From the NCBI GenBank assembly GCA_006503475.1, contig RSEH01000212.1:1-64000 (forward strand): a DNA stretch of 64,000 bases, in the 5' to 3' direction. This document shows, in pieces, positions 14,159 to 63,432 of the stretch. Every line of letters begins with the position of its first letter. The stretch's first letter is position 1. The position numbers and the translations under genes were made by a program. The notes under the pieces were generated by a model. It made no database searches and was not told the origin of the DNA. It was given only the letters and a program-made list of their open reading frames with translations. The DNA comes from Stentor roeselii (Eukaryota > Ciliophora > Heterotrichea > Heterotrichida > Stentoridae).

Positions 14159-14194
14159 CCTCTAAACTATCCAATTCCTAAACAATGGATAAAA

Positions 14195-14659
14195 ATGTCA
14201 AAGGCGAAAGGAAAGAAGCAAGAGAAGACGCAAGAAGAGCCAGAACAAGCGATTCTCGGAGCGAACCCGACAGGCGAGCTGATATTTGCAGTGTGTCATC
14301 TCTACGCGTCTTTCAACGACACCTTCATCCACGTGACAGACCTATCCGGCCGTGAAACCTTGACGCGAGTGACAGGAGGAATGATGGTAAAAGCCGACAG
14401 AGAAGAAAGCTCTCCATATGCAGCGATGATGGCAGCTGTCGAGGTTTGCAACCGTCTGAAAAAGTTAGGAATCAATGCACTTCACATTAAAATCAGGGCA
14501 AAAGGAGGAGCTGATAGTAAAACAGCTGGACCTGGAGGACAAGCAGCTCTTCGCGCTTTGGCGAGAAATGGAATGAAAATCGGTAGAATTGAAGACGTCA
14601 CGCCTATTCCCACGGATAGCACCCGACGTGAAGGAGGACGAAGAGGACGTAGATTATAA
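14195..14659 (+). CDS. RPS14: Cytosolic small-subunit ribosomal protein uS11 (RPS14)
   Basis: This is a 154-residue protein, close to the 151 of human RPS14. Diagnostic blocks are [58 protein letters not shown] and the C-terminal [11 protein letters not shown]. The frame is open upstream, but the conserved start is the Met at 14195. It sits at the platform of the 40S subunit and binds 18S rRNA. It is intact and intronless. Confidence 0.97.
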
Positions 14660-14711: not shown

Positions 14712-16718
14712 ATGTCGGAAGGAGATCCTCACAAACGTCAGAAAATTTCTGAAGAGTCGCAGGCTCTTATGACTGAGGAATCGACTTTAAAATATCAAAA
14801 CTTGTGTTTGGGGGTTAAGTTGAAGGAACAGAGGGAAGAAATTAAGAAACTTAGGATTAAGGAAGATGAATTAACTCAGAAAAGTAGGAATCAGGAAGTG
14901 TTTTTGATGGAGTTTAACCAGAAATGGGCTAAGGTAAGGGGTATTTAGATTATTTGTGACCTCAACACTCTTTGTGCTGAGTTGTCAGTCAAACCGGCTG
15001 AACCCAGTCCTTTCGATGTCTTTATTCAAGACCCCGGGGGTCTTGAAGAGTTCATCGAAGTGACTCGAAAGTGTGTTCAGAGACTTCTCGAAACAATAAA
15101 AAAAGTTTCTGACTACGAAGCCGGTTCAATCCTAGAAAATTGCAAGGAACAGCTCGATGTAAGTTCGATCCGAAGTGAAAACATGCGGTTGAAGCATGAC
15201 CTGATCAGCATGAAAGATGAGAACTTTCGAATGAGAGGAGAAATCGACGACCTGACCATGAAAAAGACGAACCTTGAAATAAAACTGATGAAAAAAGGCG
15301 AGTCAAGCTTTGAAACCTCTTCAGACAAAGCTGACGACGTCGGAGAACTGAAGCGACAAAGAGACGCATATGAAAAAATGTATAAAAATGAAATATTTGA
15401 CAAGAAAAAAAAACAATATGTCAATGAAATCACTTTCGGAAACTTCATCAACAGCAGGATCTTCAAAGGCATTGTCACCAGCGCAATAAAAATAAATGAA
15501 AAACTTAAAGTTTATCGAGAAAAATACAACGACGCCTACGAATTCAGAATCAGTTTTAAAGATAAACTTAAAAAAGAAGTCAGGTACATTGAAGAAAGAG
15601 AAAATAAAAAAAGAGATGAACTCGAAAAAAAAGTAGAAAGAATCGTTAAAGACATGGAAAAAATCAAAAGCTCTCGAGACGATGCTTTAAGAGCTCTTGA
15701 AGTCCAGAAAAAACTCCAAAAAGAACTAAAATCTTCCAACAACTTCTCAGTCCTCATCGAAACCTTGGAAAGCGACAAATCAAAACTAAATGAAAAAAAC
15801 TCGAAACTTAAAGAAAAACTTCAAAACCTCAACAAAACCATTGAAACTCTTGAAGACCTGCAAAAGTCCAGCGCATCTGAGCCAAGTGACCAAAAACTGA
15901 TTCGTCTCCTTGAAGAAACACGTTCTAAGCTAAAACTGGAACAACAAAACTCAGACAATCTCATAAAAGAAATAGAAGTCACTGAAAACGCCTACGAAAA
16001 ACAAGTGGAAAAAGTAAAAATGTTAACAAAACAACTCTCAGCACAAGAAGAAATCTATCAAAAGCTCATGAGTGAAAAAGTAAAAGAAGCCTCTTGGCGA
16101 GTAGTCCACGACCAAGAAACCCAGGCATTCGAAGAAAAAATCGCTGAACTAACAGAAAGAATTCACTTTCATGAAGAACTTCAAAGTCAATTCGACGAGA
16201 TCCAAAAAAAAAAAGACGAAAAAATCGAGTCCCTTTCAAACAAATGCAAAGAATTCGAAAAAAAAATAAAGTTCATCTTCGAAAAACACGAAGAAGGTCT
16301 TCTAAGAGTCAGCGAGTTGCTAGATGTAAAAAAAGACTACATCGCTGCATTGAAAAAAGCTGATGAACTCTTCATTAAAGCTCAAGAAGAAAGCAGTTCA
16401 AATCAAAAATTGTTAGAATCTGAGTTAAAACAGCTGAAAAAAGAACTTGCCGATAAAAACGACCCAAATAATCTAAAGTCAACTGACGAGGTGTTAAACA
16501 ATGAAGTGAGTTACTACAAGGTAAGAGCCAAATAGCAACTCATAAGATGCTCAGTTTGCAATGACAGGACAAAAGACACGATTCTTCGAGGGTGTCTCCA
16601 TGTTTTTTGCAATATCTGTCTTACACGTCATCTGGAGACCCGCAAGCGCAAGTGCCCGATGTGCAAGAATCGGTTCAACAAGGAAGACATGAAGAACTTC
16701 ACTTGGGAAAAACAGTAG
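14712..16718 (+). CDS. BRE1: E3 ubiquitin ligase BRE1 (RNF20/RNF40 homologue), three exons
   Basis: Exons are 14712-14933, 14949-16520 and 16536-16718, joined over two 15-nt introns, giving about 658 residues. The protein is almost entirely coiled coil (from about 30 to 590) and ends in a C3HC4 RING encoded by exon 3 (CSVCNDRTKD, CLHVFCNICL, RKRKCPMCKNRF). BRE1 ligases monoubiquitinate histone H2B to support transcription elongation, and the RING plus the RxRKCPxC signature are diagnostic. Without splicing, the RING is cut off and the protein would end after residue 78. The stop is 3 nt from the stop-side end of the convergent B-box gene. Confidence 0.9.
14934..14948 (+). other. 15-nt intron 1 of BRE1
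   Basis: The sequence is GTAAGGGGTATTTAG, in phase 0. Its last three bases form an in-frame TAG if the intron is retained. Confidence 0.9.
16521..16535 (+). other. 15-nt intron 2 of BRE1
   Basis: The sequence is GTAAGAGCCAAATAG, in phase 0, ending in an in-frame TAG if retained. The RING finger is encoded directly after it. Confidence 0.93.
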
Positions 16719-29249: not shown

Positions 29250-32200
29250 TCATCCTTGAATTTTACTTAAAAACTCCTTCAATTTCATTTCAATTCCTTC
29301 TAAATCATCCTTTAAGACCTCTTTAGAATCCTTCACTTTTTCCTTTCGAGTTTCCAGACAAAGAGCTGTTGTCGGGAAAAAAGTGATGTCATTTTGCATC
29401 AATTTTCCTTTCACGTACTTTTCGATGCCGTCACATTCAGTGATAGGTTTTCTTCGAATATATAAAATATAAGCCAAATAAGCCCAGACGTTATGTTCTA
29501 TCTGAATATGTTGATTCCACCCTGATCCTCTTAATTCAAATTCATGTTTAGGTCTTCCACAAACAAAACAGAAATTTTCAATGTCATGTTCGATTTCACG
29601 TCTTGCGTCTCTAAGTTCTGCGAAGGTGTCAACAATGATCCCGAAGAAAATGTTTAGCATGATGATGATCACGATGATGAAAAAAGTGATGTCGAATATC
29701 AAGCGAAGCTCGTAGTACTTGTCTTTTCGCACAGATGGAAAGATGACGTCACCGATGCCTCCTCCAGCTCTGATGCCAAGACTTAAAGAACTCGCAACAC
29801 AGTTGAATAAAGTATCGCAATAAGTGTTTAACTGGTATTCATTTCCAAGACTTTCCATATAATATTGTCGAAGAAGTGCAAATCCCCAGACACCGAAAAT
29901 ATAAACAAAAATAACTAACAAGACAACAGTTAATAGTAAAGACTTCTTGTTTTTCGTTATGACAAGTAAGACATTTTTCAGTGTTTCTGACCTTCTTAAG
30001 ATATCAAGCATCATGACTGCGTAAAAGAAAGGGTTGTACCATCCTAGTATTGCCAAAATACATAAAATGATGTTTATAAGGTTCTCGAAGTCGAATAGTA
30101 TATAAAAAATATATTTCTTGTAGTTCTGTAACTCACTTCCCAGGTTTTTCGAAGATGATTCTATCAAGTTGTTCATTTTGATAGTGCCTTGAATTTCTGA
30201 ACCACCTGAAGTATGCAGTCCTCCAGCTTCTTGATTTTCATGGATTTTATTGAAAATAATCATGGGGTAAGTCATGAGCACTGACAATAAATACATGAAA
30301 ACAGAGATGATCATTATCATTGTTCGAAGAAAAATCATCAGACCCTCTCCTGGGAACTGTGAAGTGTTGTAAGTCGAGTCATTCGCAGAAGAAACAGTTC
30401 CAATCACAATCAAATTCGCGAGGATGATAGTGATAAACAGCATCTTTGCAAAGAAGTCGTAACGACTGGTCATCCACCCTAAGAACCCGATTCGATGAAT
30501 GATCTGCAAATGACTAAGTTCATGTTGAATTTTTTCAGTGAGAAACAAAAAACTCTTGATTTGTTCCTCATTCGAATCACGGTCAACTCCATAAATAACC
30601 CCTCGTCGCATTCGTTCATTTAAAAAAGCGAGAGACGTCGGTATCTGAAAAAAGCATTTTTCGATTTGACCGTCTTTATCAATTTCAATGCTTGCGATGA
30701 GACTAGTGTAAAACTCGTAAGCCTCGTCCATGGTGCCATCAGACTCAATATACTTGATAAGAAACAAGAAAAGTTTTTTAAAGTCCATGAAAATATCTTC
30801 ATTTGAACCTCCAAGATGATCAATGCCGTTTAATATCTTGTCAATCATCGGCTCTCCTTTGTACTCAGGGTGTTCATCAGAGAAGCAGAGACACCGAAGT
30901 TCATCAATATTTCTGAACCTTTCCCTTAACTTAACAGTGATAATCGTGATCTTAAACCCAACTGATATCATGTCCCAGTCCTCTACTTGCAATTCAGGCA
31001 AAGACGACTCCATTGACACATAAACTGATTTAATTTCATTTAAAAGTTGATTATCAAGATTTGTCCCCACAATTGACTCCTGCAAAAAAGCATCTTTATT
31101 TGGCATCACGAATTCTTTATATATTATCAAAGCGACGTCAGCGAGGATTTGAAAATCAATAAAATCAATCATTTTTAAAGCGAGATCATTGGAAAAGTTA
31201 CCTTCAAGTAAAGCTTCTAAGAACTTTACAATGCTCTTGAATAAAGCTTTAGCTTCTGCGTTGATGCTGTAGAGTTGAATGATTGAATTGATGAACTTGT
31301 AAAGTTTTTTCTTTTTTCCTAGTAATTCTTGGTTTTTTACACAAGGACCTTTGCACATGTCGGTCAAGGTCTCGAAAGCTTGGATGACTACGGAAGTAGC
31401 GGAAGGGTCTGATAATAAACACCCGCCTACTTGTTTGAGGTTTACCAGAAATGAAACGATTTCATCGACCATGTTGATTGAAATTGCTTTAGAAGACTCT
31501 TGCTCACGAAGGAAGTTCTGAAAAGGCAGATAACAGTTTTCACAGCACATTTGAAGTAATCGCAAAAGGAACTCAGCGAGATAAGGATCACTTTTATTTA
31601 CCTTTTCACTTCTCATTAAGTTACCCATGTTATCATCTTCAGCATTTGATTGAATGACTAACATTTTTTCAATGTTTTTATCAGGATCATGTAAAAACCT
31701 TTCCAAATGTTTTTTAATGATCGAGTCACGAGTATCTCTTAACACATCTCGAATATAAGGAAAAAGTTCACAAGAGTTCTGAGATTTAATCAAATTTAAA
31801 AAATTTTCCTGGATTTTCGAGTTTCCATATTCAAGAAGCCCGATGAGTAACTGTACTGCTTCCTGCACAAGTGAAAGAGGACTGTTGACACTGATCAGGT
31901 CTAAAGCGATTTTAAGAACTCCAGCATCGCTAAGTCGACATTGGCATCTAACAAGTTCTTTTTTTAAATTTTCCTCTTCCACATCACGTTCATCAAAAAG
32001 TGCATCTTTCGGAGTGAATTCCGGAATTAACATCTTAAAAATCCTTACCAGGTAGATTTTATGTCTTTTCTTGTAAAACACAAGACCCAGCTTCGTAATT
32101 GACTCATCAAGGGAAACATTTACAGGGTCCATATATTTTTCTTTTATCTTCGAAACAAGCATTTTCATATCATCTTCGATGCAGATTTCGAAGAACTTTT

Positions 32201-35200
32201 CACAAAATTCTCGGAATTTTTCTTTCACGTCTTCTGAAGGGTTTTGTGGCTCTGGGCCTTGAGGCTCTGAAAAATTCTGAACTTCTTCTTCTTCGCCTTC
32301 TTTTTTTACTTTTACTATTCGAGGATGCTTTGAAAAATACCTTCTGACTATTCTTTCTAACTCGGATATTTGGATGGTTCCGCTGTGGTCTGAGTCGATT
32401 TGGTTAAAAGCTTGTTCTATCTCTGCTGATGAAATGTTTCCTATTATTTTTCTTATCAATACTCGAAATTCCTCGAATTCGATTAAACCTGAACCATCTG
32501 CATCGAAGTATTGAAAAGCCTCGTCGAGAGATAGTTTGTTGTCGATTATATATTTTTGAAGACTTTTTATTATCACGTTGTCGGAAAACTTCTGACCTGG
32601 ACGAACTGATTCTTGAGCTCCTCTTGGAAGGGACTCACGCAGATGGTCACTTGCGATTATGTATCTGGAAAAATCGATTTCTGGGTTTGAGTTTTCTGCT
32701 TGTTGGAGAAGGTCGTTTATTTCGAATAAAACTAGTTTCAGGTCACGAATGATATTCCCCATGTTTTCATCAATTGGCATAGGAGAGTCTTGAAAGATAT
32801 TCATAAAAATCCTAAACAATCCAATATGTTCATCAAACCAACTAGGTTTCTGCGACAAGTACTCCCAATACTCCAACGTATCCTGTTCAAGCACAGTGAG
32901 TTTCGGCGATCGTCTCCTAACCTGATTCCTGCTAATAACTGGAAAAGCTCCTTTTCTACAAAGATCCATAATAATCTGATAAGTAGTCTTTATTTTCGCA
33001 ACATCAGGAATAACCACATCCCTAATAAGCGAGTCAAGAAGGTTAATATTAAGTTCAGGTTCAACTTCTCCTTCAATTTTACTGAAAAAAATCAATTGCA
33101 TGAACCTAAAATAAACCAACTTTGCAGAATAAGTCATTTCTGGCTTTAACAAGCAATTTCTCAAACTAGTAAAAGTCATCAACTTCCTTCCTTGAAGTAT
33201 TCCAAAAGTATTCCTTGCTGAGCAAGCGATTACCACTCGAAGCACCTCCAAATGTAAGAAAAACTTCTGACTAGCCAAAACAGTCGGATCCAAAAAAATC
33301 ATCGGCGCGAAGACATCCTGTGAGTCTTCTCCTGTAATTTTTCTAATCCCTTCACTTTTAAACACAAGTTTTAACACCCTGACCTGCAGTTTCTGAATGA
33401 ATTGCAAGTCGAAGTCTCTTAAAAATCCTCTGAGAAACTGAGCATATTCAACAGAAAAACCTTCTGAATCGATATAAGAAAAAACAGAAGAAAGAGCAAG
33501 TTCACCTTTAGGACTAAGTCTTAAATCACTGAGAACTTCACAGATAAGTCTTGTGATGTTTATTTCTGGGATAAGTTCAATCATTCTATGGATACTTCTT
33601 GAAACTTTTTCCTGATTTTTCTTGTTTTTCTTGACGAAGATCAGAAGTCCTGCTATTGTGACTTGAAAAAGTTGTGCCAAGTTTCTGCTGATTTTAAGTT
33701 CGAGGATTTCTAGAAGAAGATGGTTGATTCCACTGTGGTTGAGAAGGTTTTGATATAAGGTTTTAGTGCTGCTGGACTTGTACATCGCGATGCAGTCTTG
33801 AATGATCACTACTGAGTCTTTGATGGCTTCTGTGACTTGGCTTGAGTCATGAGTTTCATCTTTTTCTTGTACAAGAAGAGTGACTGTGGACTGAAGTCGC
33901 TTTCCAAGGAGAACCATGCTTTTGTATTGATCAGTCTGCTCGTCACTGAAAAGGAACTCACAGTATTTCAGTTCAGTTGAAAGGACTTCTCTTAAAGTTA
34001 TGTCTTGAATTAGCACATTTAGAGCTTTTATGTGAATTTCTTTGTTTTTTCCTCCACTTACGTCGAAAAGTAACTCGAGAAGGTAAATGTCCATGTTGTA
34101 AATTCGTTCTCTGTATTCTTTATCGACTTGGCCAAATGCGTTTTCCACATCGACTGTGTAAGGAACAGAAACATCCCAGTCAAGTTTAGTCATCATTTTA
34201 TCAAACCTCTCTTTAAGACTCTCATCAATGGGTCCAGAATTTTCGTAGTTTTCTTTAAAAAACAAGAGAAAGTCAAGAATATGGAGATTTTGTCTCAGAT
34301 TAACAATAACTTCCAAAGCTTTCAAAATTTCCAAGTAAAACAAGGAAATTTTATACTCTAAGCTTGGCCTATAGTTATCATCAAGTGACTGATAAACCCC
34401 CATGATAAACTTAGAACTCCAATGATCAGTACTTCCACAGTCTTTCATCATGAAAAAGCACAAAGGTTGCATGAAAAACTCGATAAAGTCCTCATCTTCT
34501 AGTTCCAAGTCAATTATTGTGCTAGCAAGTTTCGAAAAAGAAATGATTAAAGCAATACTTCTACTTTCTTTCAAATGTTTTACTCGCACTCCTCCGTCTT
34601 TATCCCAAAAGAACCTGATGATGTCTCGAACTGGCTTTAAAGATTCTTTTCGTTGTTGGTGGATCTGGTCTTCGAACTTCTTCAAGTCACTCCAAACGAA
34701 ACATCTTTCTTTGTGAAGAGAACATGGCAGGAGTGGGTCGATGTCGATGAAGATCACTCGGCATAGATCTGCATAAGCTGCTCGAAGTTTGTCACTGATG
34801 TTAACGTTTCTCAAGATTGATGCAATGTGCTCTAAAGTCACTCCTTTTGCGGTTTGGATCTGGTTTATTGCTTTTGCAAACCTGGAAGTGCAAACAGAAG
34901 TCAAGAATTCAATTGCATGTGCCAAGTAATTAGAATAAATAATGTTATCTGATATGTCCTCCACGTAAAAAGAACCTTCATAAGGCTCTTGTTCTACGAG
35001 AAAATTTCCTTCATCGACAACTACACCTAAATGATCTAAAAAAGGGTTTAACTCTAAAAATTTCTTTAAATTCATCTTTTTTTTTGGAAAGTCGAATTCG
35101 ATAACAGGTCTTTTGTTGAGATAGTCAAATTTTATAATGGAAAAATCTGTCTTCGGGTCTGTGAGTTTTTTAAGTGCCTGGCTTTGATAGCGTTTATCAC

Positions 35201-37004
35201 CTTGGTCATTAGAAGCGCATAAATACTGTAAAATGCTTAAATAAAGGCCTTGTTCTTTCAAGTTTTCCTTTGTAATCGGTTTCAAATAATTATACCATAT
35301 TTGAAAATTGTTCTCATCTAAAGACTGAACAACAGTCGAGTTTTTAAATAGTTCTTTTAAAATCCTACCAATTCCAAGGGTCAGTCCTTGTTCGAGCTGA
35401 GCCAAAAGGACAGCTTCGTATTGGAAAAGATGTTTGCAGTTCTTCATGTTGGACTTTATCGAGTCGTAGATTAAATTGTAAACTTTTTCAAGGACTTCAC
35501 TAAAGCGGTGTGAAAATTCGTTAACTGGCAAGAGTCTACTGTATAGTTCTTGACAGGTCTTGATTAGTACTTCAGTTATGTTGAGCTCTCTTATCGCGTT
35601 TTGACGAGTGATTAAATCGACATCTTCACTGGCTTTCAAGATTATGTGCTGAGAGATGTTGTTAAGTAAACTCTTGAAATTTAAACATTTTTCGTGGAAT
35701 TTTTTTATGTTGTCTGGTGTTAAGTCGCTCATTTCGCTGCTGGTAGGCAAGTCACTCACATACTCCGAAAAATCAGTCAAAAAAGGGTTAACCAGAGAAA
35801 GTTTATAGACATGTGCAGTCTTAGCCTCAGCCACATCTTCAATAATAAAAGCAACCCCTGAGAAATTCTTCGTTGTATATACAACCGACAATCGAAGCCA
35901 CTGTTTTTTATCACGATCTTTCTGCATTTCATTATATTCCAAATTCAAAAAGCGATTTTTCATAGTTTTTATTCCAAAGATACTTCCAAACTGAATATCT
36001 TTCGTTCCTGGAGGATTTTCAGACACAAAGTTAAACAAAGTTCCATCATCATATCCCTTAGAAGTCAGAAAAATGCCATCAGTAGTTTCTTGAAGGAATT
36101 TTCCAGTAGCCACATGTTTAACTCTATAAAATTCCTGCCATTTCGCAGTCCCACCAAAAAAAGTAGCAGTTCTTTGCACTTCCCACAAAGAGTTACTAGT
36201 GACATTTCCTTCTTGAACAAAGACCTCATGTGGTTGTCCTTCTTTAAAAGTCTTAGTGCATAAAAATCCTCCACTAATATGATGTTTAATGCGAAAAGAA
36301 TCACCAGTCCTCACAAAAGAACTGGTATCAGTGAACAGGTCAAAGTTAATAAACCTTCGAATCATCCAAGGACTGAAAAGTCCAGAAGCATTGACATCCG
36401 CGCGAGAAGCAGCTGAAAGTGTTTTTTCTTCAGCGTGTAAATAGTACTGTGACTTATTGGAGACCATTACAAGGCAAACAGAGTCGCTATATCTGATGAC
36501 TTCTCCTTCTTTTCTTAACTTGTTCGTCGCTGTTATCTCGAACCAGGACTTTTCATCACTTTCTTCAGTCATCGAGACTTGAAGACACCCGGCTTCCGCC
36601 GCCATTGACTGGGTGAAGACTGAAATAAAACCGGAAGAATGCAAATGACGAAGTTGAATTTTCTCACCGTATGTTAAAGGCTTGCCTAGTGATTGTTTTA
36701 ATTCGGATTCTGATTGTTTTGAAGCGTCTTTTGTCACTTTTGTTGGGATTTCGATACGGAAAAGGCAGGATCGAGTTAGGATGTTTGCACCTTTGTCGTT
36801 GGAGGATTCACGGGGGATCACTGTAACTGAATTTGAAATCACACCGTCGGCTGAGATCATTCCGCAGTAGGAACCTCTTTTCATTAGCAGGAGGATTATG
36901 TCTCCGATTTTCACGAATCCGGTCTTGTCTGTTTTTAGCTCTTCTCGCACTTTTCCTTCGTTTACTTCTTTTTCTTCGAGGTTTGGATTTTCCGCGTCTT
37001 CCAT
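29250..37004 (-). CDS. IP3-receptor/ryanodine-receptor-type intracellular calcium channel
   Basis: This is a 2,584-residue uninterrupted frame, close to IP3-receptor size (about 2,700). Order: N-terminal beta-trefoil and MIR region (about 25-400; GDIILLLMKRGSYCGMISADG, LRHLHSSGFISV), helical RIH regions (about 450-1,450), a canonical EF-hand pair near 1,500 and 1,540 (DADGSGLIEFEE and DSDHSGTIQISE), further helical repeats, membrane segments at about 2,175-2,455, pore loop SLGIRAGGGIGD (filter GGGIGD, as in RyR; IP3R has GGGVGD), and the C-terminal C2H2 zinc block (CFVCGRPKHEFELRG...HIQIEHN). It should release calcium from stores. The EF-hand pair is a RyR-like trait in an IP3R-sized protein. 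Whether IP3 binds was not established. Confidence 0.9.
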   Translation of the reverse strand: MEDAENPNLEEKEVNEGKVREELKTDKTGFVKIGDIILLLMKRGSYCGMISADGVISNSVTVIPRESSNDKGANILTRSCLFRIEIPTKVTKDASKQSESELKQSLGKPLTYGEKIQLRHLHSSGFISVFTQSMAAEAGCLQVSMTEESDEKSWFEITATNKLRKEGEVIRYSDSVCLVMVSNKSQYYLHAEEKTLSAASRADVNASGLFSPWMIRRFINFDLFTDTSSFVRTGDSFRIKHHISGGFLCTKTFKEGQPHEVFVQEGNVTSNSLWEVQRTATFFGGTAKWQEFYRVKHVATGKFLQETTDGIFLTSKGYDDGTLFNFVSENPPGTKDIQFGSIFGIKTMKNRFLNLEYNEMQKDRDKKQWLRLSVVYTTKNFSGVAFIIEDVAEAKTAHVYKLSLVNPFLTDFSEYVSDLPTSSEMSDLTPDNIKKFHEKCLNFKSLLNNISQHIILKASEDVDLITRQNAIRELNITEVLIKTCQELYSRLLPVNEFSHRFSEVLEKVYNLIYDSIKSNMKNCKHLFQYEAVLLAQLEQGLTLGIGRILKELFKNSTVVQSLDENNFQIWYNYLKPITKENLKEQGLYLSILQYLCASNDQGDKRYQSQALKKLTDPKTDFSIIKFDYLNKRPVIEFDFPKKKMNLKKFLELNPFLDHLGVVVDEGNFLVEQEPYEGSFYVEDISDNIIYSNYLAHAIEFLTSVCTSRFAKAINQIQTAKGVTLEHIASILRNVNISDKLRAAYADLCRVIFIDIDPLLPCSLHKERCFVWSDLKKFEDQIHQQRKESLKPVRDIIRFFWDKDGGVRVKHLKESRSIALIISFSKLASTIIDLELEDEDFIEFFMQPLCFFMMKDCGSTDHWSSKFIMGVYQSLDDNYRPSLEYKISLFYLEILKALEVIVNLRQNLHILDFLLFFKENYENSGPIDESLKERFDKMMTKLDWDVSVPYTVDVENAFGQVDKEYRERIYNMDIYLLELLFDVSGGKNKEIHIKALNVLIQDITLREVLSTELKYCEFLFSDEQTDQYKSMVLLGKRLQSTVTLLVQEKDETHDSSQVTEAIKDSVVIIQDCIAMYKSSSTKTLYQNLLNHSGINHLLLEILELKISRNLAQLFQVTIAGLLIFVKKNKKNQEKVSRSIHRMIELIPEINITRLICEVLSDLRLSPKGELALSSVFSYIDSEGFSVEYAQFLRGFLRDFDLQFIQKLQVRVLKLVFKSEGIRKITGEDSQDVFAPMIFLDPTVLASQKFFLHLEVLRVVIACSARNTFGILQGRKLMTFTSLRNCLLKPEMTYSAKLVYFRFMQLIFFSKIEGEVEPELNINLLDSLIRDVVIPDVAKIKTTYQIIMDLCRKGAFPVISRNQVRRRSPKLTVLEQDTLEYWEYLSQKPSWFDEHIGLFRIFMNIFQDSPMPIDENMGNIIRDLKLVLFEINDLLQQAENSNPEIDFSRYIIASDHLRESLPRGAQESVRPGQKFSDNVIIKSLQKYIIDNKLSLDEAFQYFDADGSGLIEFEEFRVLIRKIIGNISSAEIEQAFNQIDSDHSGTIQISELERIVRRYFSKHPRIVKVKKEGEEEEVQNFSEPQGPEPQNPSEDVKEKFREFCEKFFEICIEDDMKMLVSKIKEKYMDPVNVSLDESITKLGLVFYKKRHKIYLVRIFKMLIPEFTPKDALFDERDVEEENLKKELVRCQCRLSDAGVLKIALDLISVNSPLSLVQEAVQLLIGLLEYGNSKIQENFLNLIKSQNSCELFPYIRDVLRDTRDSIIKKHLERFLHDPDKNIEKMLVIQSNAEDDNMGNLMRSEKVNKSDPYLAEFLLRLLQMCCENCYLPFQNFLREQESSKAISINMVDEIVSFLVNLKQVGGCLLSDPSATSVVIQAFETLTDMCKGPCVKNQELLGKKKKLYKFINSIIQLYSINAEAKALFKSIVKFLEALLEGNFSNDLALKMIDFIDFQILADVALIIYKEFVMPNKDAFLQESIVGTNLDNQLLNEIKSVYVSMESSLPELQVEDWDMISVGFKITIITVKLRERFRNIDELRCLCFSDEHPEYKGEPMIDKILNGIDHLGGSNEDIFMDFKKLFLFLIKYIESDGTMDEAYEFYTSLIASIEIDKDGQIEKCFFQIPTSLAFLNERMRRGVIYGVDRDSNEEQIKSFLFLTEKIQHELSHLQIIHRIGFLGWMTSRYDFFAKMLFITIILANLIVIGTVSSANDSTYNTSQFPGEGLMIFLRTMIMIISVFMYLLSVLMTYPMIIFNKIHENQEAGGLHTSGGSEIQGTIKMNNLIESSSKNLGSELQNYKKYIFYILFDFENLINIILCILAILGWYNPFFYAVMMLDILRRSETLKNVLLVITKNKKSLLLTVVLLVIFVYIFGVWGFALLRQYYMESLGNEYQLNTYCDTLFNCVASSLSLGIRAGGGIGDVIFPSVRKDKYYELRLIFDITFFIIVIIIMLNIFFGIIVDTFAELRDARREIEHDIENFCFVCGRPKHEFELRGSGWNQHIQIEHNVWAYLAYILYIRRKPITECDGIEKYVKGKLMQNDITFFPTTALCLETRKEKVKDSKEVLKDDLEGIEMKLKEFLSKIQG

Positions 37005-52718: not shown

Positions 52719-53756
52719 ATGGTATTTATTTCTCTCTGGAGTCCACGTCAATCACCTCGTCTTGTATTTTTTTCCCCTGTTATACTGGGAATAATCTTGA
52801 CTTTAACCTTTTATTCCTCGTCAGTTCTTTATTCTTCAGACTACCTCGACCGATGCGAATTCGAAAAGTTCATCGAGACTTACTCGAAGGCTTACACTGA
52901 TAAAGACTCTCGCTTCTTCACCTTTCAAGCAAATCTAGCCTTCATCCGAATGCACAACAGTCAAAACGAAGACTGGGTCTTGGGAGTCAACTCCTTCGCC
53001 GACCACTCCCCTGACGAGTTCAGAGAAAAATACCTCCGAGGCCTGGTACAGGCCGAGCCTAGAAAAAGTGAGTCAAAAGGGGAAAAATCTGTAAAGGATA
53101 TTCCGACGTATGTTAATTGGGTTAAGAATGGCGCTGTTACTCCTGTTGGAACTCAGGGAAATTGTGGAAGTCATTGGGCTTTTTCTGCTGCTGGAGCTAT
53201 TGAAGGCATTTGGAATATTTCAGGAAATCCGTTGGTTCAGTTGTCGGTGCAGCAGTTGGTGGATTGCTCGGGAAAGTATGGAAATTATGGGTGCAATGGA
53301 GGACTTATGGATTATGCTTTTAAGTATGTCATGGGAAATAAAGGGATCAACTCTTGGGCGAATTATTCTTATGTTGGAATTGAGAGTCCTGGGTGTAATA
53401 AGACTTTAGCTAGTGCTGCTGTTGCTTTGATTAAGAACTTTACGGATGTTCAGGCTAATTCGAGTGATGCTTTGTTGCAGGCTATTGCACAGCAACCTGT
53501 TTCTGTAGGAGTTGAAGCTGATCAGTCTATTTGGCAGTTTTATAGGGGAGGGGTTATTTCTAGAAATTGTGGAACGTTACTAGATCACGGCGCTCTAGTA
53601 GTAGGTTACAATCTCGAAAGCACTCCAAACTACTACCTAGTAAAAAACTCCTGGGGTGCACAATGGGGAGAAAACGGTTACATCCGGTTAGCAATAACAC
53701 CAGGTGCAGGTGTCTGCGGCATCCAAATGATCCCTTCATACCCTACCCTTAGCTAG
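52719..53756 (+). CDS. Papain/cathepsin-family protein with catalytic Cys replaced by His (pseudoprotease)
   Basis: This is a 345-residue protein. A hydrophobic segment (about 18-38) may be a signal anchor. Next comes an I29 inhibitor prodomain ([23 protein letters not shown]) and a C1A papain fold. The active-site motif reads [11 protein letters not shown], where papains have QGxCGSCWAFS, so the nucleophile is His152 (codon CAT, 53172-53174). The active-site His290 ([10 protein letters not shown]) and Asn310 ([10 protein letters not shown]) remain, as do the glycines of [10 protein letters not shown]. It should be unable to cleave peptides by the papain mechanism, but it may bind or inhibit, as known silicatein-type Cys-to-Ser relatives and other pseudoproteases do. 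Confidence 0.9.
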
Positions 53757-57082: not shown

Positions 57083-58126
57083 ATGTCCAAAAAACTAGGG
57101 GATGTTGTTTGGGCCAAAGTCTCTGGATATCCAGAATGGCCAGGAATTATCTCAAAGTTAGACGGAAGTCAAGCCACTGTCCATTTCGTTGGAGACAACA
57201 CTCAGTAATTTTTAGCCAGCACCTTGAAAGATATTTCAAAATTGAAGAATTTTTCAGAAAATAAGCTAAAAAAAGCTGATAGATGGCTCACTAAAAGTTA
57301 TAAAGCAGCATCGGCCTTGCAACCACCAGTGTCTTTAGAAGAATTGAAAGAGATCAACAGTCGAATAATCGCTAAATTCCAAAACTCCGCTCCAAAAGAA
57401 TCAAAATCCCCAGAAAAATCCGGAAAACAAACAAAACAATCAAATCAAGAAAAACCAGAAAACTCCAGATACCCCGAAGAAAGTTTCGAGGAAAAACTGC
57501 GAACCTTATACTTAAAGCTCGACAAGAAAATCTCAAATTCTCTCGAAACCCCAGAATCAAGAAGAACGCGTTTACCAGCCCTTAAAAAAAGTGCAGAAAT
57601 TCTAAATTCATTCACAATGCAAAACTACAACCAAAACAAAACTTACTCAATAGAGGACATCTTAGAAATCATCGAAAAAATCACAGATCTCGAATATTCA
57701 AAGAAACTTCTTCATTGCTCAGGAATAATCCGGATTTTAAAGTACTTTAAATCATTTTTAGCTGATTCCAGTGACCAAGAGGTAAAGAAACTAGTAAAAC
57801 TCTCAGATAAACTTTTACAACATTTCAACAAACTTCTGGTAATGAGTGAGTTATTCGAAGGAAATTCTAAAAACGATGAAAATCACTCAGAAAAAGTGAA
57901 GATGCGAGGAGAGATGCTTAAAGTTCTTTCTGATAAAGGTTTTAGTGGCGCTTCAGGTTCAAAACAAATGAAAAACATTGAGTCCAAGTTGAAAGAAATG
58001 GACCCAAGTGAAGGAAAAGTTTATCTAGAAAAATATTCTTATTTGATAAAAGAATTTCAAAGATCAACCAGCTTGTCACTTGAGGACCTTACTCAGCAGG
58101 GCTTTGTTTTTCTTAATAATAGTTAA
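57083..58126 (+). CDS. PWWP-domain chromatin protein with LEDGF-like helical domain
   Basis: Exons are 57083-57204 and 57220-58126, joined over a 15-nt intron, giving 342 residues. The PWWP domain (1-70) has GDVVWAKVSGYPEWPGIIS and HFVGDNTHTLK; the second half of the core appears only after splicing. Residues about 180-260 form a helical bundle (SIEDILEIIEKITDLEYSKKLLHCS and following), like the integrase-binding/TFIIS-N domain of HDGF/LEDGF proteins. Such proteins read histone H3K36 methylation and tether other factors. The middle is Lys/Ser/Pro-rich. The stop overlaps the ATG of the next gene by 1 nt. Confidence 0.85.
57205..57219 (+). other. 15-nt intron of the PWWP gene
   Basis: The sequence is GTAATTTTTAGCCAG, in phase 2. 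Retained it gives CAG TAA. It interrupts the PWWP core, and both sides read as one domain once it is removed. Confidence 0.92.
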
Positions 58127-59619
58127 TGAAAATCTGTTCAGGGTACTCGACATGGTCGCTTCGAAGACAGCTTCAAACAATTTTTATCACAATCTACTCG
58201 ATTCTTATCTCTCTTTATGTTTTAATGACTGTGCTACAGTTGAGTTGGCTTGAAAATTATTTGAATGAGAACTCTTATGATGTTATTAAAGGGAACATGA
58301 TTGACCAGTTGAAACTTATTTCAGATTCAGAAGTTCTTCATGTTATGATTGGAATAGAACGCATTCAGAACCTTGTCTTGATGAGGGCATTAATGGTTGA
58401 AGTCACTTTAGGATTTAGCTCGGTAAGTAACAATTACTTTGAAAAAGCGACTGCAATTAATTCAAAAAAAGTTGGCTACACTACTTTTAATTATTCATAT
58501 GGGTATCATTCAAGATTTAGCGATTTAAGTGAGGAAGGGGAGGATATTGTTTCAAGAATGGCTGGGTTGAATCCGATTCTTGGAACTTTATTTGAAGAGA
58601 CCATGACTTCAATTTATGAAGGGTTTTATACTGATGAAATTCTTAATTTTAGTCCTTTAGTGTACTTTGATGATTCAAGTTACTCTCCTTTGAATCGTGA
58701 ATGGTTTTATAAAGCAGTTGATACACCTAAATTATTGATATCGACTGAGCCTTATTTCGACTATACGACTAATCAACTTATAATCACTGTCTCGAAAGCG
58801 ATTTTAAAGAATTCGACTGCCTTCGGAGTTGTTGCTGCTGATATTAGTATTGCTCAATATACTAAAACACTCAGTAATATTAGAGTCACTTCGAGTGGAA
58901 GAGTTTTTCTAGTGTCTGCTGGGGGAATTATTATGAATCCGCATCCTTCTTGGGAAAAGCTTAGTATTTATCGAATTTATAATGAATCTTTAACTGGGAT
59001 TAAATATAGTGTGTGGGAAGAAATGAAGAAACAAAAATCTGGAAGTGAATTTGAAATGGATATTACAGGGTTTGGAAGGTGCTTTCTTATTATTAATATC
59101 ATCAAGTTCGGTAATGAAACTCAGTATTTTATGTTTTCAGTTATTCAAAAGAGCAGTATTCAATCTCCTACAAAGAAACTTGAAGATTCTTTTAAAAAAA
59201 TTTATAATTATTTGTTTTGGAGTGTTATTATTATTTCTGCGATTTTTCTTTTGATTTCTATTGTTTTGATTTATTATTTTGCTAGAAGCGCTACCAAGAA
59301 GTTCAGTATGATTAATCAAATTTTAGAAAAAGTCAAAGGTAGAGCGTGTTTTCAGTATATTACTAGAAATTGTTCTTTTGAAGATATAAAAAAAAATGAC
59401 TCAGGTGTTAAAACCCTAGTTGAAAACTGTGAAGAAAAAATAAATTTCTTAACAGAAAAAGAGCAAAACTTCAAATATTTCAAATGGGATCAAACACGTC
59501 CAAGTAATGCAATGCTTCATTCAAGATGGAAAAGAAAAATATATCCTTTCAACAAATACTCTGAGAAAGACCCTCACTGGAACCGAGCAATTGACGAGAT
59601 TGGAAAATTAGTAGGATAA
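58126..59619 (+). CDS. Cache-domain membrane receptor-like protein, copy 1
   Basis: This is a 497-residue protein. A membrane helix at about 18-42 is followed by an outer region with a dCache-type core: YSPLNREWFYKAVDTP, ISTEPYFDY and FGVVAADISI (residues about 180-245), then a second membrane helix at about 358-382. The remaining 110 residues are inside the cell and match no known output domain. They end in a block shared with the next two genes (YFKWDQTRPSNAM...W...YPFNK...W). The R-x-W-F ... D pattern is that of amino-acid-binding Cache domains, with Phe for Tyr. The ATG overlaps the stop of the PWWP gene (TAATG). Confidence 0.8.
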   Translation: MKICSGYSTWSLRRQLQTIFITIYSILISLYVLMTVLQLSWLENYLNENSYDVIKGNMIDQLKLISDSEVLHVMIGIERIQNLVLMRALMVEVTLGFSSVSNNYFEKATAINSKKVGYTTFNYSYGYHSRFSDLSEEGEDIVSRMAGLNPILGTLFEETMTSIYEGFYTDEILNFSPLVYFDDSSYSPLNREWFYKAVDTPKLLISTEPYFDYTTNQLIITVSKAILKNSTAFGVVAADISIAQYTKTLSNIRVTSSGRVFLVSAGGIIMNPHPSWEKLSIYRIYNESLTGIKYSVWEEMKKQKSGSEFEMDITGFGRCFLIINIIKFGNETQYFMFSVIQKSSIQSPTKKLEDSFKKIYNYLFWSVIIISAIFLLISIVLIYYFARSATKKFSMINQILEKVKGRACFQYITRNCSFEDIKKNDSGVKTLVENCEEKINFLTEKEQNFKYFKWDQTRPSNAMLHSRWKRKIYPFNKYSEKDPHWNRAIDEIGKLVG

Positions 59620-59622
59620 TAA

Positions 59623-61134
59623 ATGGGACTTAAACAAGAATTCAGTAAACTTGACCTTTCAAGGCAAATCCAGTTAACCTTCGTTGTTTTTATCGTAATT
59701 CTTTCTGCTATCATGGTCACTATCACAAAACTTCAACTCACTTGGCTGGAAAAAGAAGTCCATTCCCAGGCGAAAGATGAAATTGAAGAAAGTGTCTTCG
59801 AAAAAATGAGAATTTTGGCAAAGTCTCAATCAGAGTTCATAGAAAATGAGTTTAAAAATTATATCAAACTTGTTCATGTTATGAAAAATTTGACTGAAAC
59901 TGTTTTAGAAGAAAATTCGAAAGTTGAGAATTTTTTGAAGGAAACTATTCCGAAATATGCTACTTCGGTTCTTGAGGATGTAAAGGACTGGACTACTTTT
60001 GTTTATGGATCGAAGTATGGAGAAGCGAATGATGGTGAAGAGAAGGTATTGGTTTATGAGCTATCGAGACTTAACCCTGTTATTCAGTCTTTAAGAGCAT
60101 CAACATATGTTAATATATATCAAGGATTTGAGTTGAAGGAAATTTATAATAGGTATCCTGGCGTCAACTATGAGACAACCAGCTACACTCCAATAGTCCG
60201 AGAATGGTACTTCCGAGCTGCTGAAAGCCCTAAAGAAACAATCCTAACAGAGCCTTACATCGACCCACTAACCAACACCTGGGTATTTTCCACTTCAATC
60301 GCAATAAAAAACTCAACAAAAGACGTGATCGGAGTAGCCGGGGCAGACATAACCTTGAAATCAATAACAGAAAAAATAACCCACATCAGTTTACTAGACG
60401 GTTACGAAATTCTCGTCACAGAAGCAGGAATGATTTTAACTAAACCAGCGAGTTGGAACATTGAAGAAACAGCGCGAATTTATGATACAAGTGAAACAGG
60501 TTTTTCTTATGAACTTTGGGAAAAAGTGCTGAAAAGTACCCCAGGTGATAGTTTTGACTTTCAAGATTTGAATGGAACTGATTATTTCATGGTAGTTGAT
60601 CATATTTCTCCTTTTCAATACAGTTCAAATGTCACACATTTTGTTTTACTTTTCGTGAATAAGCAGAAAGTAAAAAAACCTGTTGATGATTTGGATCATC
60701 AATTTAGAAATATCAATGAAATCATGTTTTGGGTTGTTATTAGTATTACTTCAGGTGTTATTGTTATTTCATTTTTCCTTATTTACTTTCAGGTCAAGAG
60801 CACTATTGCCCAGCTTAGGACTATTGAGAAACTCTTTAGGAATATTATTAGAAGGTCTTTGTTCACTCGGGCGACTCGTGATGTGAATTTAAGGAAACTT
60901 GATTTTAGGAAAAGTGGAATTGAAGAATTGGCTGAAGGGTGCAAGTATAAAGTTAAGAAAATCTCTGGGTTAGAAGAAAAGTTTAATTACTTCAAATGGG
61001 GACTTACTAGGCCGAAGGATGCGCATATTTATTTTACCTGGACCAATAATGTGTTTCCATTCAACAAGCACTACGGCAAAAAAATCGACTGGCGAGAAAA
61101 GCTTAAAATGCTCGAAAAGCCAACTTTAAAGTAA
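59623..61134 (+). CDS. Cache-domain membrane receptor-like protein, copy 2
   Basis: This is a 503-residue paralogue of the previous gene, 3 nt behind its stop. Membrane helices lie at about 18-42 and 366-390. The dCache core has YTPIVREWYFRAAESP, ILTEPYIDP and VIGVAGADITL. R-x-W-Y and the following Asp match the known amino-acid-binding Cache signature most fully of the three. The C-terminal block is YFKWGLTRPKDAHIYFTW...FPFNKH...DW. No kinase, cyclase or methyl-accepting domain is present. It is intact with no intron. Confidence 0.8.
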   Translation: MGLKQEFSKLDLSRQIQLTFVVFIVILSAIMVTITKLQLTWLEKEVHSQAKDEIEESVFEKMRILAKSQSEFIENEFKNYIKLVHVMKNLTETVLEENSKVENFLKETIPKYATSVLEDVKDWTTFVYGSKYGEANDGEEKVLVYELSRLNPVIQSLRASTYVNIYQGFELKEIYNRYPGVNYETTSYTPIVREWYFRAAESPKETILTEPYIDPLTNTWVFSTSIAIKNSTKDVIGVAGADITLKSITEKITHISLLDGYEILVTEAGMILTKPASWNIEETARIYDTSETGFSYELWEKVLKSTPGDSFDFQDLNGTDYFMVVDHISPFQYSSNVTHFVLLFVNKQKVKKPVDDLDHQFRNINEIMFWVVISITSGVIVISFFLIYFQVKSTIAQLRTIEKLFRNIIRRSLFTRATRDVNLRKLDFRKSGIEELAEGCKYKVKKISGLEEKFNYFKWGLTRPKDAHIYFTWTNNVFPFNKHYGKKIDWREKLKMLEKPTLK

Positions 61135-61143
61135 CATAAATAA

Positions 61144-62664
61144 ATGGGAAAGCAAGGTAAAGTAAGTTCACTCTTCGGAACCCTAAGCATATCATTGCAA
61201 GCCCAGCTTTTCTTGATAATCTGCTACGTGATTCTCTGTTTTACGCTAATAATCATAACCTATTACCAACTCGACTGGCTGAGGGACACAGTGATTTCCA
61301 ATTCCGAAGACTTCTTACAAGACAACCTAAGAAGGCAAATTAAAGCAGAAATCGCGCTGAAGTCTCAAACAGTCAAGCAAGTCTTTAACAACTCCGAAGA
61401 ACTTCTTATGTCTTTAGTGATGCTGGAGCAACAGCTGCTTAAATCAACAATTTTCAAGTCTAAAAACCTGCCTCAAGATATGGAACTGGAATCTGGAGAG
61501 CTTTTCTATGAATCTGCTGTTGTTATGAGACAGGAAAATTTCGACTCGAAAGGTGAAAAAGATGAGAAAAGTTTGAGTTTTTTATCTGAAGCTTTTAGAT
61601 CTTTTTATTATGAACCGTTTTTTTACTATCAAACTGGATTTACTGGACAGGACAACTTAGCTTATCCAGGTTTTTACTTCGGTGAGCGAGACTACGACTA
61701 TCAACTGAGGCAGTGGTTTTACAATGCCTCTGATTCGAAATTCTTGATCACGCAACCCCATTTTGATGAGTTTTTTCAGGATGTTAAAACTTTTTCATTT
61801 TCTAGAAAAGTTAAGAGCAGTGGCCAGGTCGCTATGCAACTGAAATTAAAACTCGATTCACTATTTCAGGAAGTTTTTCGCACCTATTCATTGAAACATG
61901 AGCAGCATTACATGGTTGTTTCTAATGACGGTTTTATTTTAGCTATTTCAGATGACTGGGCAGGACGAAAAGACAAGATCATGAAAGTATTCAATGAAAC
62001 AATCGGTATTTCATCAAAAAAATGGGAAAAAATCAAAGACAGTGACGATTTTGAAGAACTATTTAAATTCACCCGTCCTAAAAACCCTTATAAAGTAAAA
62101 AACAGCGACGAAGGCACTGAGTACCGACTGATGAAAATCGATATAAAAGTGAATCCTTTAACTTTTTACTTAATTGTTTGTTACAGGTTCGAAGATCTTT
62201 CCGACCAAATCGACGACATCAGAGAAAATTTCAACGAAACCTTCAACACGATCTTTTACATCATCCTCATCATCGGAATCATCATCGTCATCGTCATTCT
62301 CATAGTTGTCCGACTTGCCATCAGAGACCTGGTGATCAAGTTTTTCGCCTTCGAAGCAGTCCTCGACAAGATTTTTTCAAGAGCTCTTTACAAAGACTCA
62401 ACTCAAATGATGGACCTCAGCCAGTTACTTGTAAAACCTGGAATGTTCAGTGATTTAATTTCTGCATTCGAGGCAAGAATGAGGCAGCTTCGTCAAAAAG
62501 AAGAAAAAAACTCTGACTTCTTCATGAAAAAAATCAAACCTCCTGAAACTTATCTTTACCTGGACTGGAAAAATAAAGTTTATCCTAAAGGCAACTCGAT
62601 TAAGTCAAAGGTGGACTGGGTTGATTCTCTTAGAGCATTAAAAAAAAATAAGGATTATTTTTAG
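61144..62664 (+). CDS. Cache-like membrane protein, copy 3 (divergent)
   Basis: This is a 506-residue paralogue, 9 nt behind copy 2. The N-terminal helix (about 20-43) and second helix (about 372-397, very Ile/Val-rich) are kept. The outer core is worn: YDYQLRQWFYNASDSKF keeps R-x-W-F, but the GxxxADI end is LKLKLDSL, so the ligand Asp position is lost or moved. The C-terminal block is FFMKKIKPPETYLYLDWKNKVYP...DW. It may bind another ligand, or none. The C-terminal block is the best-conserved part after the helices. Confidence 0.72.
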   Translation: MGKQGKVSSLFGTLSISLQAQLFLIICYVILCFTLIIITYYQLDWLRDTVISNSEDFLQDNLRRQIKAEIALKSQTVKQVFNNSEELLMSLVMLEQQLLKSTIFKSKNLPQDMELESGELFYESAVVMRQENFDSKGEKDEKSLSFLSEAFRSFYYEPFFYYQTGFTGQDNLAYPGFYFGERDYDYQLRQWFYNASDSKFLITQPHFDEFFQDVKTFSFSRKVKSSGQVAMQLKLKLDSLFQEVFRTYSLKHEQHYMVVSNDGFILAISDDWAGRKDKIMKVFNETIGISSKKWEKIKDSDDFEELFKFTRPKNPYKVKNSDEGTEYRLMKIDIKVNPLTFYLIVCYRFEDLSDQIDDIRENFNETFNTIFYIILIIGIIIVIVILIVVRLAIRDLVIKFFAFEAVLDKIFSRALYKDSTQMMDLSQLLVKPGMFSDLISAFEARMRQLRQKEEKNSDFFMKKIKPPETYLYLDWKNKVYPKGNSIKSKVDWVDSLRALKKNKDYF

Positions 62665-62700
62665 AGTTTTATATTTTTTACTTTATATTTATTTCTTTGA

Positions 62701-63432
62701 ATGGGAAATTTTACTTTTTCTATTCTTCGCATTTTTGAGTACTCTTTTCAAAGGACTGCTTCTGAGGACCTGGAAACGCTGAAGAAAAAAGTTGTTTCGG
62801 TTGAAGAAAGATGTGACGGGCTTGAATTTTTGCAAGACCCGAGACCTGGGTTCAGGTCTTTTTTATTGCTGAGGACGAAAGATAACTGTTACATTCGAGT
62901 TGATTACCCGGAAGGCTCTGTCGAGCCTCTGGTCAATTTTAACTACAGAGAAAGTATGAATTGTGAGTCTTTTCGTTATTCTTTAGTGAAAGAAGAACTG
63001 ACACTTGAACAGGCTTTGGAAATTATCAGAAAACATTCAGTCAAACTGCCTTTTCAATGGAATTCTCATAATTCTCAGCATGTTTGTTTAGATTCTTTCA
63101 GAGAAATGACTGGAATTCATACTTTTTTACTTAGGAATGATTATCTTAGGTGGCGTAGGCAAAGATTTCATTCTAAGGATAAAAAAGATGCTCATGAAAG
63201 AGACTCTAGAGAACTTATAGTCAAAAAATGGAAAAAGGAACTTGGACCTGAATTAGACTCGGAAAAAATTGAAAATTTTTATGGGCCTAGGATAAGAAGG
63301 GATTCTTGGGAAATGTTTGAATTTGCTGTTCACTTGGCTTCTGTCAAGTATTGGGAAAAGTTTATGGATCCTGGGTTTAAAGAAATTCGAAAAAAAATCT
63401 GGAAAAGAGCTGAGATGGGGAGTTCGAATTAA
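62701..63432 (+). CDS. Acylation-type cytosolic protein, unknown (possible papain-like fold)
   Basis: This is a 243-residue protein starting MGNFTFS, a possible N-myristoylation site. Residues about 50-140 (FLLLRTKDNCYIRVDYPEG..., then LTLEQALEIIRKHSV, LPFQWNSHNSQHVCLDSFREMTG) recall permuted papain-like (LRAT/PPPDE-type) domains that carry an N-C-x-H-F motif; here it is NSQHVC, so the usual Cys would be Ser. This is a weak match. The C-terminal 90 residues are rich in Arg, Lys and Trp. It lies 36 nt behind the Cache array on the same strand, so it may work with it. Confidence 0.5.
   Translation: MGNFTFSILRIFEYSFQRTASEDLETLKKKVVSVEERCDGLEFLQDPRPGFRSFLLLRTKDNCYIRVDYPEGSVEPLVNFNYRESMNCESFRYSLVKEELTLEQALEIIRKHSVKLPFQWNSHNSQHVCLDSFREMTGIHTFLLRNDYLRWRRQRFHSKDKKDAHERDSRELIVKKWKKELGPELDSEKIENFYGPRIRRDSWEMFEFAVHLASVKYWEKFMDPGFKEIRKKIWKRAEMGSSN

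Follow-up and report, generated by a model that had tools for sequence, protein, structure and literature searches.

Double-Cache membrane proteins with a conserved short inner tail form a multigene family in the ciliate Stentor roeselii

Three consecutive genes, designated as W1, W2 and W3, were recognized at positions 58126-62664 of a 64,000-nucleotide stretch of Stentor roeselii DNA (assembly GCA_006503475.1, contig RSEH01000212.1, positions 1 to 64,000), which is called the window here. They encode membrane proteins with a predicted double Cache (dCache_1) outer region and a short inner tail that ends in a conserved block, the C-block. At least 17 full-length members of this family are encoded in the genome, and no output domain is fused to their sensor part. 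We put about even trust in the reading that they are receptors for an amino acid or an amine, which would signal through a separate partner docked on the tail; both the ligand and the partner are predictions. The initial annotation of the window had described three Cache-type paralogues with an unrecognized shared tail. To this the present analysis adds a predicted ligand class, the finding that W3 has lost its ligand site, a minimum size for the family and its distribution in the genome, the division of the tail into two parts, evidence that W1 and W2 conceal no further output domain, and the recognition that histidine kinases are encoded separately in the genome.

W1 (58126..59619, 497 residues), W2 (59623..61134, 503 residues) and W3 (61144..62664, 506 residues) are intact open reading frames (ORFs) of about 500 residues, arranged head-to-tail on the forward strand and each starting with ATG; the coordinates given in the initial annotation are right. 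In each of them hydropathy places one hydrophobic segment at about residues 16-38 and another at about 364-388, and the order already described, helix 1, an outer region of about 325 residues, helix 2 and a tail of about 110 residues, is seen in all three. The helices of W1 correspond to residues 19-37 (58180..58236) and 364-382 (59215..59271). The residues past the last segment above threshold number 115 in W1, 107 in W2 and 118 in W3. The inner tails, which presumably face the cytoplasm, are at 59272..59616 in W1, at 60784..61131 in W2, where the tail is counted from residue 388 and a second overlapping hydrophobic segment extends to residue 396, and at 62308..62661 in W3.

The genome (assembly G000, 44.4 megabases, 522 contigs) was searched with full-length W1, W3, C344 and C520, with three tails and with two Pfam families, and the resulting counts are lower bounds. 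At least 17 full-length members were found, divided into 14 close members (W1-W3, two genes from C198, and one each from C3, C366, C421, C78, C119, C153, C453, C320 and C72) and three distant members (C344, C520 and C35). The trio is located on C130, a pair on C198 with a distance of 288 nucleotides, and the other twelve on twelve different contigs. Thus, the "tandem array" of the initial annotation holds as a local head-to-tail cluster, but the family as a whole is mostly dispersed.

The double Cache assignment of the outer region is supported by profile searches and, more tentatively, by fold matches of a low-confidence structural model. At the curated Pfam cut-offs, MCP-like_PDC_1 was passed by W1 and W2 and dCache_1 by W2 only; W3 is below both, and its Cache assignment comes mainly via its paralogues (best e-value 1.6e-36). 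At an e-value of 1 or less, 16 of the 17 family members match MCP-like_PDC_1 and 15 match dCache_1; C35, scanned singly, matches neither. Genome-wide, 13 of 15 places for MCP-like_PDC_1 (PF22673) and 9 of 16 for dCache_1 (PF02743) are above the curated cut-off. A profile built from the 17 members matched 24 PDB sequences at an e-value of 0.001 or less, all of them through the Cache region. The top solved relative is a diguanylate-cyclase sensor (7k5n, 3.2e-21), followed by PctA (5ltx, 1.9e-19), and PctB, PctC, Mlp24, Mlp37 and CtaA are also included, as is CACHD1 (8s7c, 1e-13). The AlphaFold model of W2 (three sequences) is of low confidence, with a predicted local distance difference test (pLDDT) of 54.4 and a predicted template modelling score (pTM) of 0.43. 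With this low-confidence model, Foldseek returned 93 matches at an e-value of 0.001 or less, with dCache receptors at probability 1.00. Among the best 50 of the 93, ranks 1 and 18 are full-length models of methyl-accepting chemotaxis proteins (MCPs), and the rest represent sensor domains, either from chemoreceptors or from a histidine kinase. PctA was matched at 4.1e-8 with a TM-score by target of 0.58, a value that depends on the same low-confidence model. The Foldseek matches are largely the same set as the profile relatives. The earlier suggestion of a Cache-type outer region is therefore upheld by Pfam, by the PDB profile and, within the limits of the model, by Foldseek, and no outer fold other than Cache emerged.

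The ligand site of dCache receptors can be followed through a short motif. In excerpts of PMC9901441, the amino-acid motif consists of Y..R.WY and, further along, a Y and a D; excerpts of PMC11245519 name Y121, W128, Y129, Y144 and D173 of PctA and describe part of the motif as shared with amine sensors. R126 of PctA was placed by counting along its aligned sequence YDPRSRPWY, and the Y-to-R spacing in the motif printed in the PMC9901441 excerpts is one x shorter than in PctA. In the 17-row alignment, the equivalents of Y121 and W128 are present in all 17 members. W1 (Y, R, W, F, Y, D) and W2 (Y188, R193, W195, Y196, Y212, D242) are among the 10 of 14 close members that retain all six positions, Y or F being accepted at 129. 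The motif stretch is at 58681..58842 in W1, in the membrane-distal Cache half and as counted from the sequence, and at 60184..60348 in W2. C366 shows only a substitution of D by E, and two or more positions are lost in W3, in one of the C198 pair (C198b) and in C421; the R of the motif is absent in all three distant members. In W3, H and Q are observed at the positions corresponding to Y144 and D173 of PctA, and the degenerate equivalent of the stretch, its place likewise counted from the sequence, is at 61693..61839. From these residues, W1 and W2 look like amino-acid binders and W3 does not.

The tails were described in the initial annotation as one block with a common pattern. Used as a regular expression, with gap ranges chosen by the analyst, this pattern matched W1-W3 only among the 561 stop-to-stop ORFs of at least 40 codons in the window, and in the family it fits these three of the 17 members only. 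The matching motifs are YFKWDQTRP...WKRKIYP...HW in W1 (59476..59580), YFKWGLTRP...WTNNVFP...DW in W2 (60988..61092) and FFMKKIKPP...WKNKVYP...DW in W3 (62518..62619). A looser pattern, [RK]P-x(5-8)-[WV]-x4-[YF][PS]-x(9-13)-W, which was composed after the alignment was seen, is present in 13 of the 14 close members and in none of the three distant ones. Further evidence was obtained with a hidden Markov model (HMM) of the C-block built from 11 close paralogues outside the window: it found exactly W1 (6.5e-19), W2 (5.2e-16) and W3 (1.6e-7) among the 561 ORFs, far above chance, with the next ORF at 0.37. The tail is not uniform. A poorly conserved segment of about 55 residues at the position of HAMP precedes the better conserved C-block of about 55 residues, and an HMM of this first segment matches W1 and W2, not W3. 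The common C-block is thus confirmed, but the tail consists of two parts, and the first part of W3 is missed by the segment profile.

Searches of the genome with the tails at an e-value of 1 or less returned mostly the family itself. The C153 tail gave 15 matches, the 14 close members and one on C293; the C293 match (e-value 0.073) overlaps an ORF that looks by eye like an amine oxidase and was rejected as chance. All 14 matches of the W2 tail are close members, the query included. The C35 tail matched the three distant members and, weakly, C161 (e-value 0.23). The claim that the tail contains no known domain also stands, as no consistent match was found in Pfam, NCBIfam or PDB. The best PDB match is an antibody at 0.17, taken as chance. 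In Pfam, 11 families each matched 1 of the 14 members, the best being Syntaxin_2 at 7.3e-4, which were taken as chance coiled coil. In NCBIfam, W1 and W2 had no match and W3 had two at 0.04-0.1, far below the cut-offs. The structure model of the tail (pLDDT 55) is too poor for use. The distant members have a shorter end block, which may be related to the C-block of the close members: hhalign gave 17.4, where 50 shuffles reached 12.7 at most, at a probability of only 11.9%.

Pfam HAMP is absent in all 17 members. The 14 close tails aligned with seven Escherichia coli HAMPs by hhalign at 9.6, within the range of the shuffles (maximum 14.1 of 30). The segment after helix 2 of the three distant members reached 17.7, above the shuffle maximum of 12.6 of 30, at a probability of only 6.9%. 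The same part of C344 and C35, the two distant members scanned, matched the equivalent part of NarQ, CpxA and chemotaxis transducers in NCBIfam at e-values of 0.001-0.03, far below the cut-offs. It is likely that the ancestor was a Cache-HAMP receptor in which HAMP diverged and the output was lost or replaced.

The family is strongly diverged. The two halves of the ectodomain have a mean pairwise identity of 0.29-0.30 among the 14 close members; the corresponding value is 0.21 for the segment that follows helix 2 and 0.28 for the C-block. In the phylogenetic tree, W2 is grouped with C119 (100/98), and W3 is on a long branch of unsure position. A recent triplication of the trio is not supported by these placements, and the group statistic, which puts the window rows in one group only against the three distant rows, is uninformative on a single origin. 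The closest pair, C366 and C320, is 64% identical, with nonsynonymous (dN) and synonymous (dS) divergence of 0.26 and 1.05 overall (dN/dS about 0.25), 0.23 and 1.08 in the ectodomain (about 0.21), and 0.35 and 1.17 in the tail (0.30). In the other pair tested, dS was saturated for the whole gene, the ectodomain and the C-block. Whole-gene constraint on the amino-acid sequence is clear in C366/C320 and weaker in the C-block.

Pattern scans for relatives in prokaryotes and viruses gave 5, 117 and 6 stretches, none of them confirmed; the patterns were few and also missed known bacterial dCache proteins. Of the 16 dCache_1 places in the Stentor genome, 15 fall on ORFs of 498-557 codons; the remaining place is on an ORF of 951 codons with TPR and VWA, and no kinase or cyclase domain was found in the scanned dCache_1 ORFs. 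C510 (L057:3166-6000, 944 residues) resembles the family in its dCache ectodomain, in two helices recognized by eye and in a weak HAMP-like segment, but has a large TPR and VWA part where the family has the short C-block. Weak HAMP matches were also obtained for two ORFs of 912-933 codons, one on C21 and one on C237, which may be relatives of C510.

If the family consists of surface receptors, the outer double Cache would bind a small amino acid or an amine, as in PctA-type chemoreceptors, and the receptors would themselves lack a catalytic domain. A ligand bound in the membrane-distal half of the Cache would move the helix leading into membrane helix 2, the inner segment at the HAMP position would relay this movement to the C-block, and the C-block would be a short adaptor on which a separate partner, cytoplasmic or in the membrane, docks. 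W1 and W2 would be the members that bind ligand. W3, whose site is broken, could be a constitutive subunit or a partner subunit, or could bind a different molecule. PctA, PctC, CtaA and Mlp37, among the best solved relatives by profile and, with the low-confidence model, by fold, share with the family the dCache and the Y..R.WY..Y..D motif. In these bacterial receptors, two helices bracket the sensor as they do in W1-W3. They differ in their signalling part: in the Stentor family neither HAMP nor an MCP signalling domain is detected by Pfam. Neither does the genome contain an MCP match, with none of six candidates reaching an e-value of 0.01 for MCPsignal (PF00015), and for HAMP it has no place above the cut-off and two weak ones.

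Four observations weigh against this interpretation. By e-value, the best solved relative is the diguanylate-cyclase sensor and not a receptor recognized as an amino-acid binder. The motif is changed in 4 of the 14 close members (in C366 by D to E only) and in all three distant ones. Confidence in the structure models is low (pLDDT 54 and 55), which leaves the pocket and the fold of the tail unconfirmed. In C366/C320, the C-block, the part proposed to dock the partner, is less constrained than the rest, with dN and dS of 0.57 and 0.90 and dN/dS of about 0.63 over 56 codons.

The proteins could instead be channel-modulating subunits similar to alpha2delta or CACHD1, whose ectodomain would act from outside on the trafficking or gating of a membrane calcium channel and whose tail would only anchor or sort the protein. 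Excerpts of PMC9901441 describe animal dCache proteins that carry this motif as subunits of channels, CACHD1 is among the PDB matches given above, and channel subunits need no catalytic output. Alpha2delta and CACHD1 are also eukaryotic and have no known catalytic output, and the excerpts of PMC9901441 ascribe the same amino-acid motif to alpha2delta. They also describe alpha2delta with VWA inserted in Cache and with a glycosylphosphatidylinositol (GPI) anchor, whereas in W1-W3 the Cache is bracketed by two membrane helices, the tail is conserved and no VWA was found. The tail motif throughout the family suggests an inner partner. Of the neighbouring genes listed, five were scanned, and none of these five matched a channel family. 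Such a role appears unlikely, although it fares best among the alternatives to ligand-binding receptors.

Uptake, adhesion or mating-type surface proteins are a somewhat more doubtful explanation, in which diversified ectodomains would bind molecules of food, prey or partners, with the tail as a sorting or endocytosis signal. The strong divergence, with a closest pair of 64% identity and a mean ectodomain identity of about 0.3, and the short, motif-like C-block are consistent with it, but the ligand-site residues of small-molecule sensors are retained in 10 of the 14 close members.

Equally doubtful is a split like that of MCP and CheA, in which the Cache receptors would pass the signal to separate histidine kinases with unrelated inner parts. 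HisKA was found at 16 places in the genome, 14 of them above the cut-off, on ORFs of 450-795 codons (C506, C174, C195 and others), and none of these places is on a contig with a matched Cache gene. The methyl-accepting domain had no match in the genome, as described above, nor among the Pfam matches of the family. Two of the 16 HisKA loci were read: one combines HisKA, HATPase and a receiver, and the other HisKA and PAS. In both, hydrophobic segments are seen by eye ahead of the kinase part, and neither contains an extracellular sensor domain by Pfam. As far as the searches reach, the cell would thus have receptors without kinases and kinases without Cache sensors, but the two sets could each serve other pathways. 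The full version, a two-piece eukaryotic chemosensory system in which at least 17 output-stripped dCache receptors dock on separate histidine kinases through the C-block, with broken-site members as obligate partner subunits, is the least probable of all.

Fungal and plant osmosensor kinases of the AHK1 type also resemble the family, with two helices around an outer loop of about 300 residues called Cache in excerpts of PMC6944256. No kinase domain is among the Pfam matches of the family proteins. The osmosensor kinases of the Sln1/AHK1 type continue into histidine kinase domains, whereas W1-W3 end after about 110 residues.

The compact arrangement of the trio bears on whether an output could be hidden nearby. 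From the gene upstream of W1 to the gene downstream of W3 (58110-62710), the successive spacings are -1, 3, 9 and 36 nucleotides; the 3-nucleotide gap (59620..59622) is a second TAA, and the 9-nucleotide gap is at 61135..61143. A hidden output exon in W1 or W2 was rejected, as the next gene begins 3 or 9 nucleotides past the stop. Short gaps are common in the window, 7 of 11 other same-strand neighbour pairs being spaced 8-34 nucleotides (from the window ORF list, in which the upstream gene was extended and ORFs 13973-14659 and 15183-16535 were omitted), and the tight spacing therefore seems to reflect the style of the genome rather than an operon. W1, W2 and W3 share one reading frame, which stays open under the ciliate code of table 6. 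Readthrough into one protein was rejected because several paralogues encoded on other contigs have starts that align with the starts of W1 and W2 and because TAA, TAG and TGA each end family genes. For Blepharisma, excerpts of PMC9942806 report that TGA is read as tryptophan. The standard code in a heterotrich fits Stentor, which uses it, or a relative.

The gene upstream of W1 is PWWP-like by eye, but its 57209-58123 part had no Pfam match; the next ATG ORF, 36 nucleotides past W3, had none either. A candidate 15-nucleotide intron, GTAATTTTTAGCCAG, is located at 57205-57219 in the upstream gene; its removal would delete an in-frame TAA, and a 16-nucleotide GT...AG string is close to it. Introns of 15-16 nucleotides are reported for Blepharisma in the PMC9942806 excerpts, as is a telomere unit of CCCTAACA for this heterotrich. 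Repeats of CCCTAACA were found at both ends of C153 and were absent from the other 16 of 18 contig ends examined.

In the full-text literature, mostly outside subscription papers, no paper joining dCache with ciliates was found, and the family may still be reported. In one paper that mentions both Cache domains and Tetrahymena, the passages deal with receptors of animals and with a list of taxa. Two papers that contain both terms, Cache domain and ciliate (PMC8199190 and PMC5019070), concern bacterial histidine kinases, judging by their titles. Amino acids are among the chemicals to which ciliates respond, and to our knowledge, few of their chemical receptors are known at the molecular level. 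A multigene family with a bacterial amino-acid site and one short conserved tail where an output would normally follow offers named candidates, predicted ligands and a single motif. If the assignment is true, the range of the amino-acid Cache sensor, so far bacteria and animals, would extend to ciliates, which the paper defining the motif may already list.

Neighbouring genes of the family were compared for a recurring partner, and the few similar pairs were unconvincing. L010 226-2184 and L015 5202-7205 encode related proteins of about 650 residues (46% identity over 626 columns) without a Pfam match, and each of these ORFs is the first one downstream of a Cache gene in the same orientation. 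A class III nucleotide cyclase ORF (L019 24-1742, e-value 2e-67) is located near the Cache gene of C72, on the other strand and separated from it by a single ORF. In the window, a papain-family protease is encoded at 52719-53756 (Peptidase_C1, e-value 2.2e-64); the position of the catalytic cysteine reads His in GSHWAFS, where the usual form is GSCWAFS, and the protein is perhaps a pseudoenzyme. An ORF 55% identical to it is located near the Cache gene on C3. A single ORF of 2584 codons at 29250-37004 resembles by eye an intracellular calcium-release channel and contains EF-hand-like stretches.

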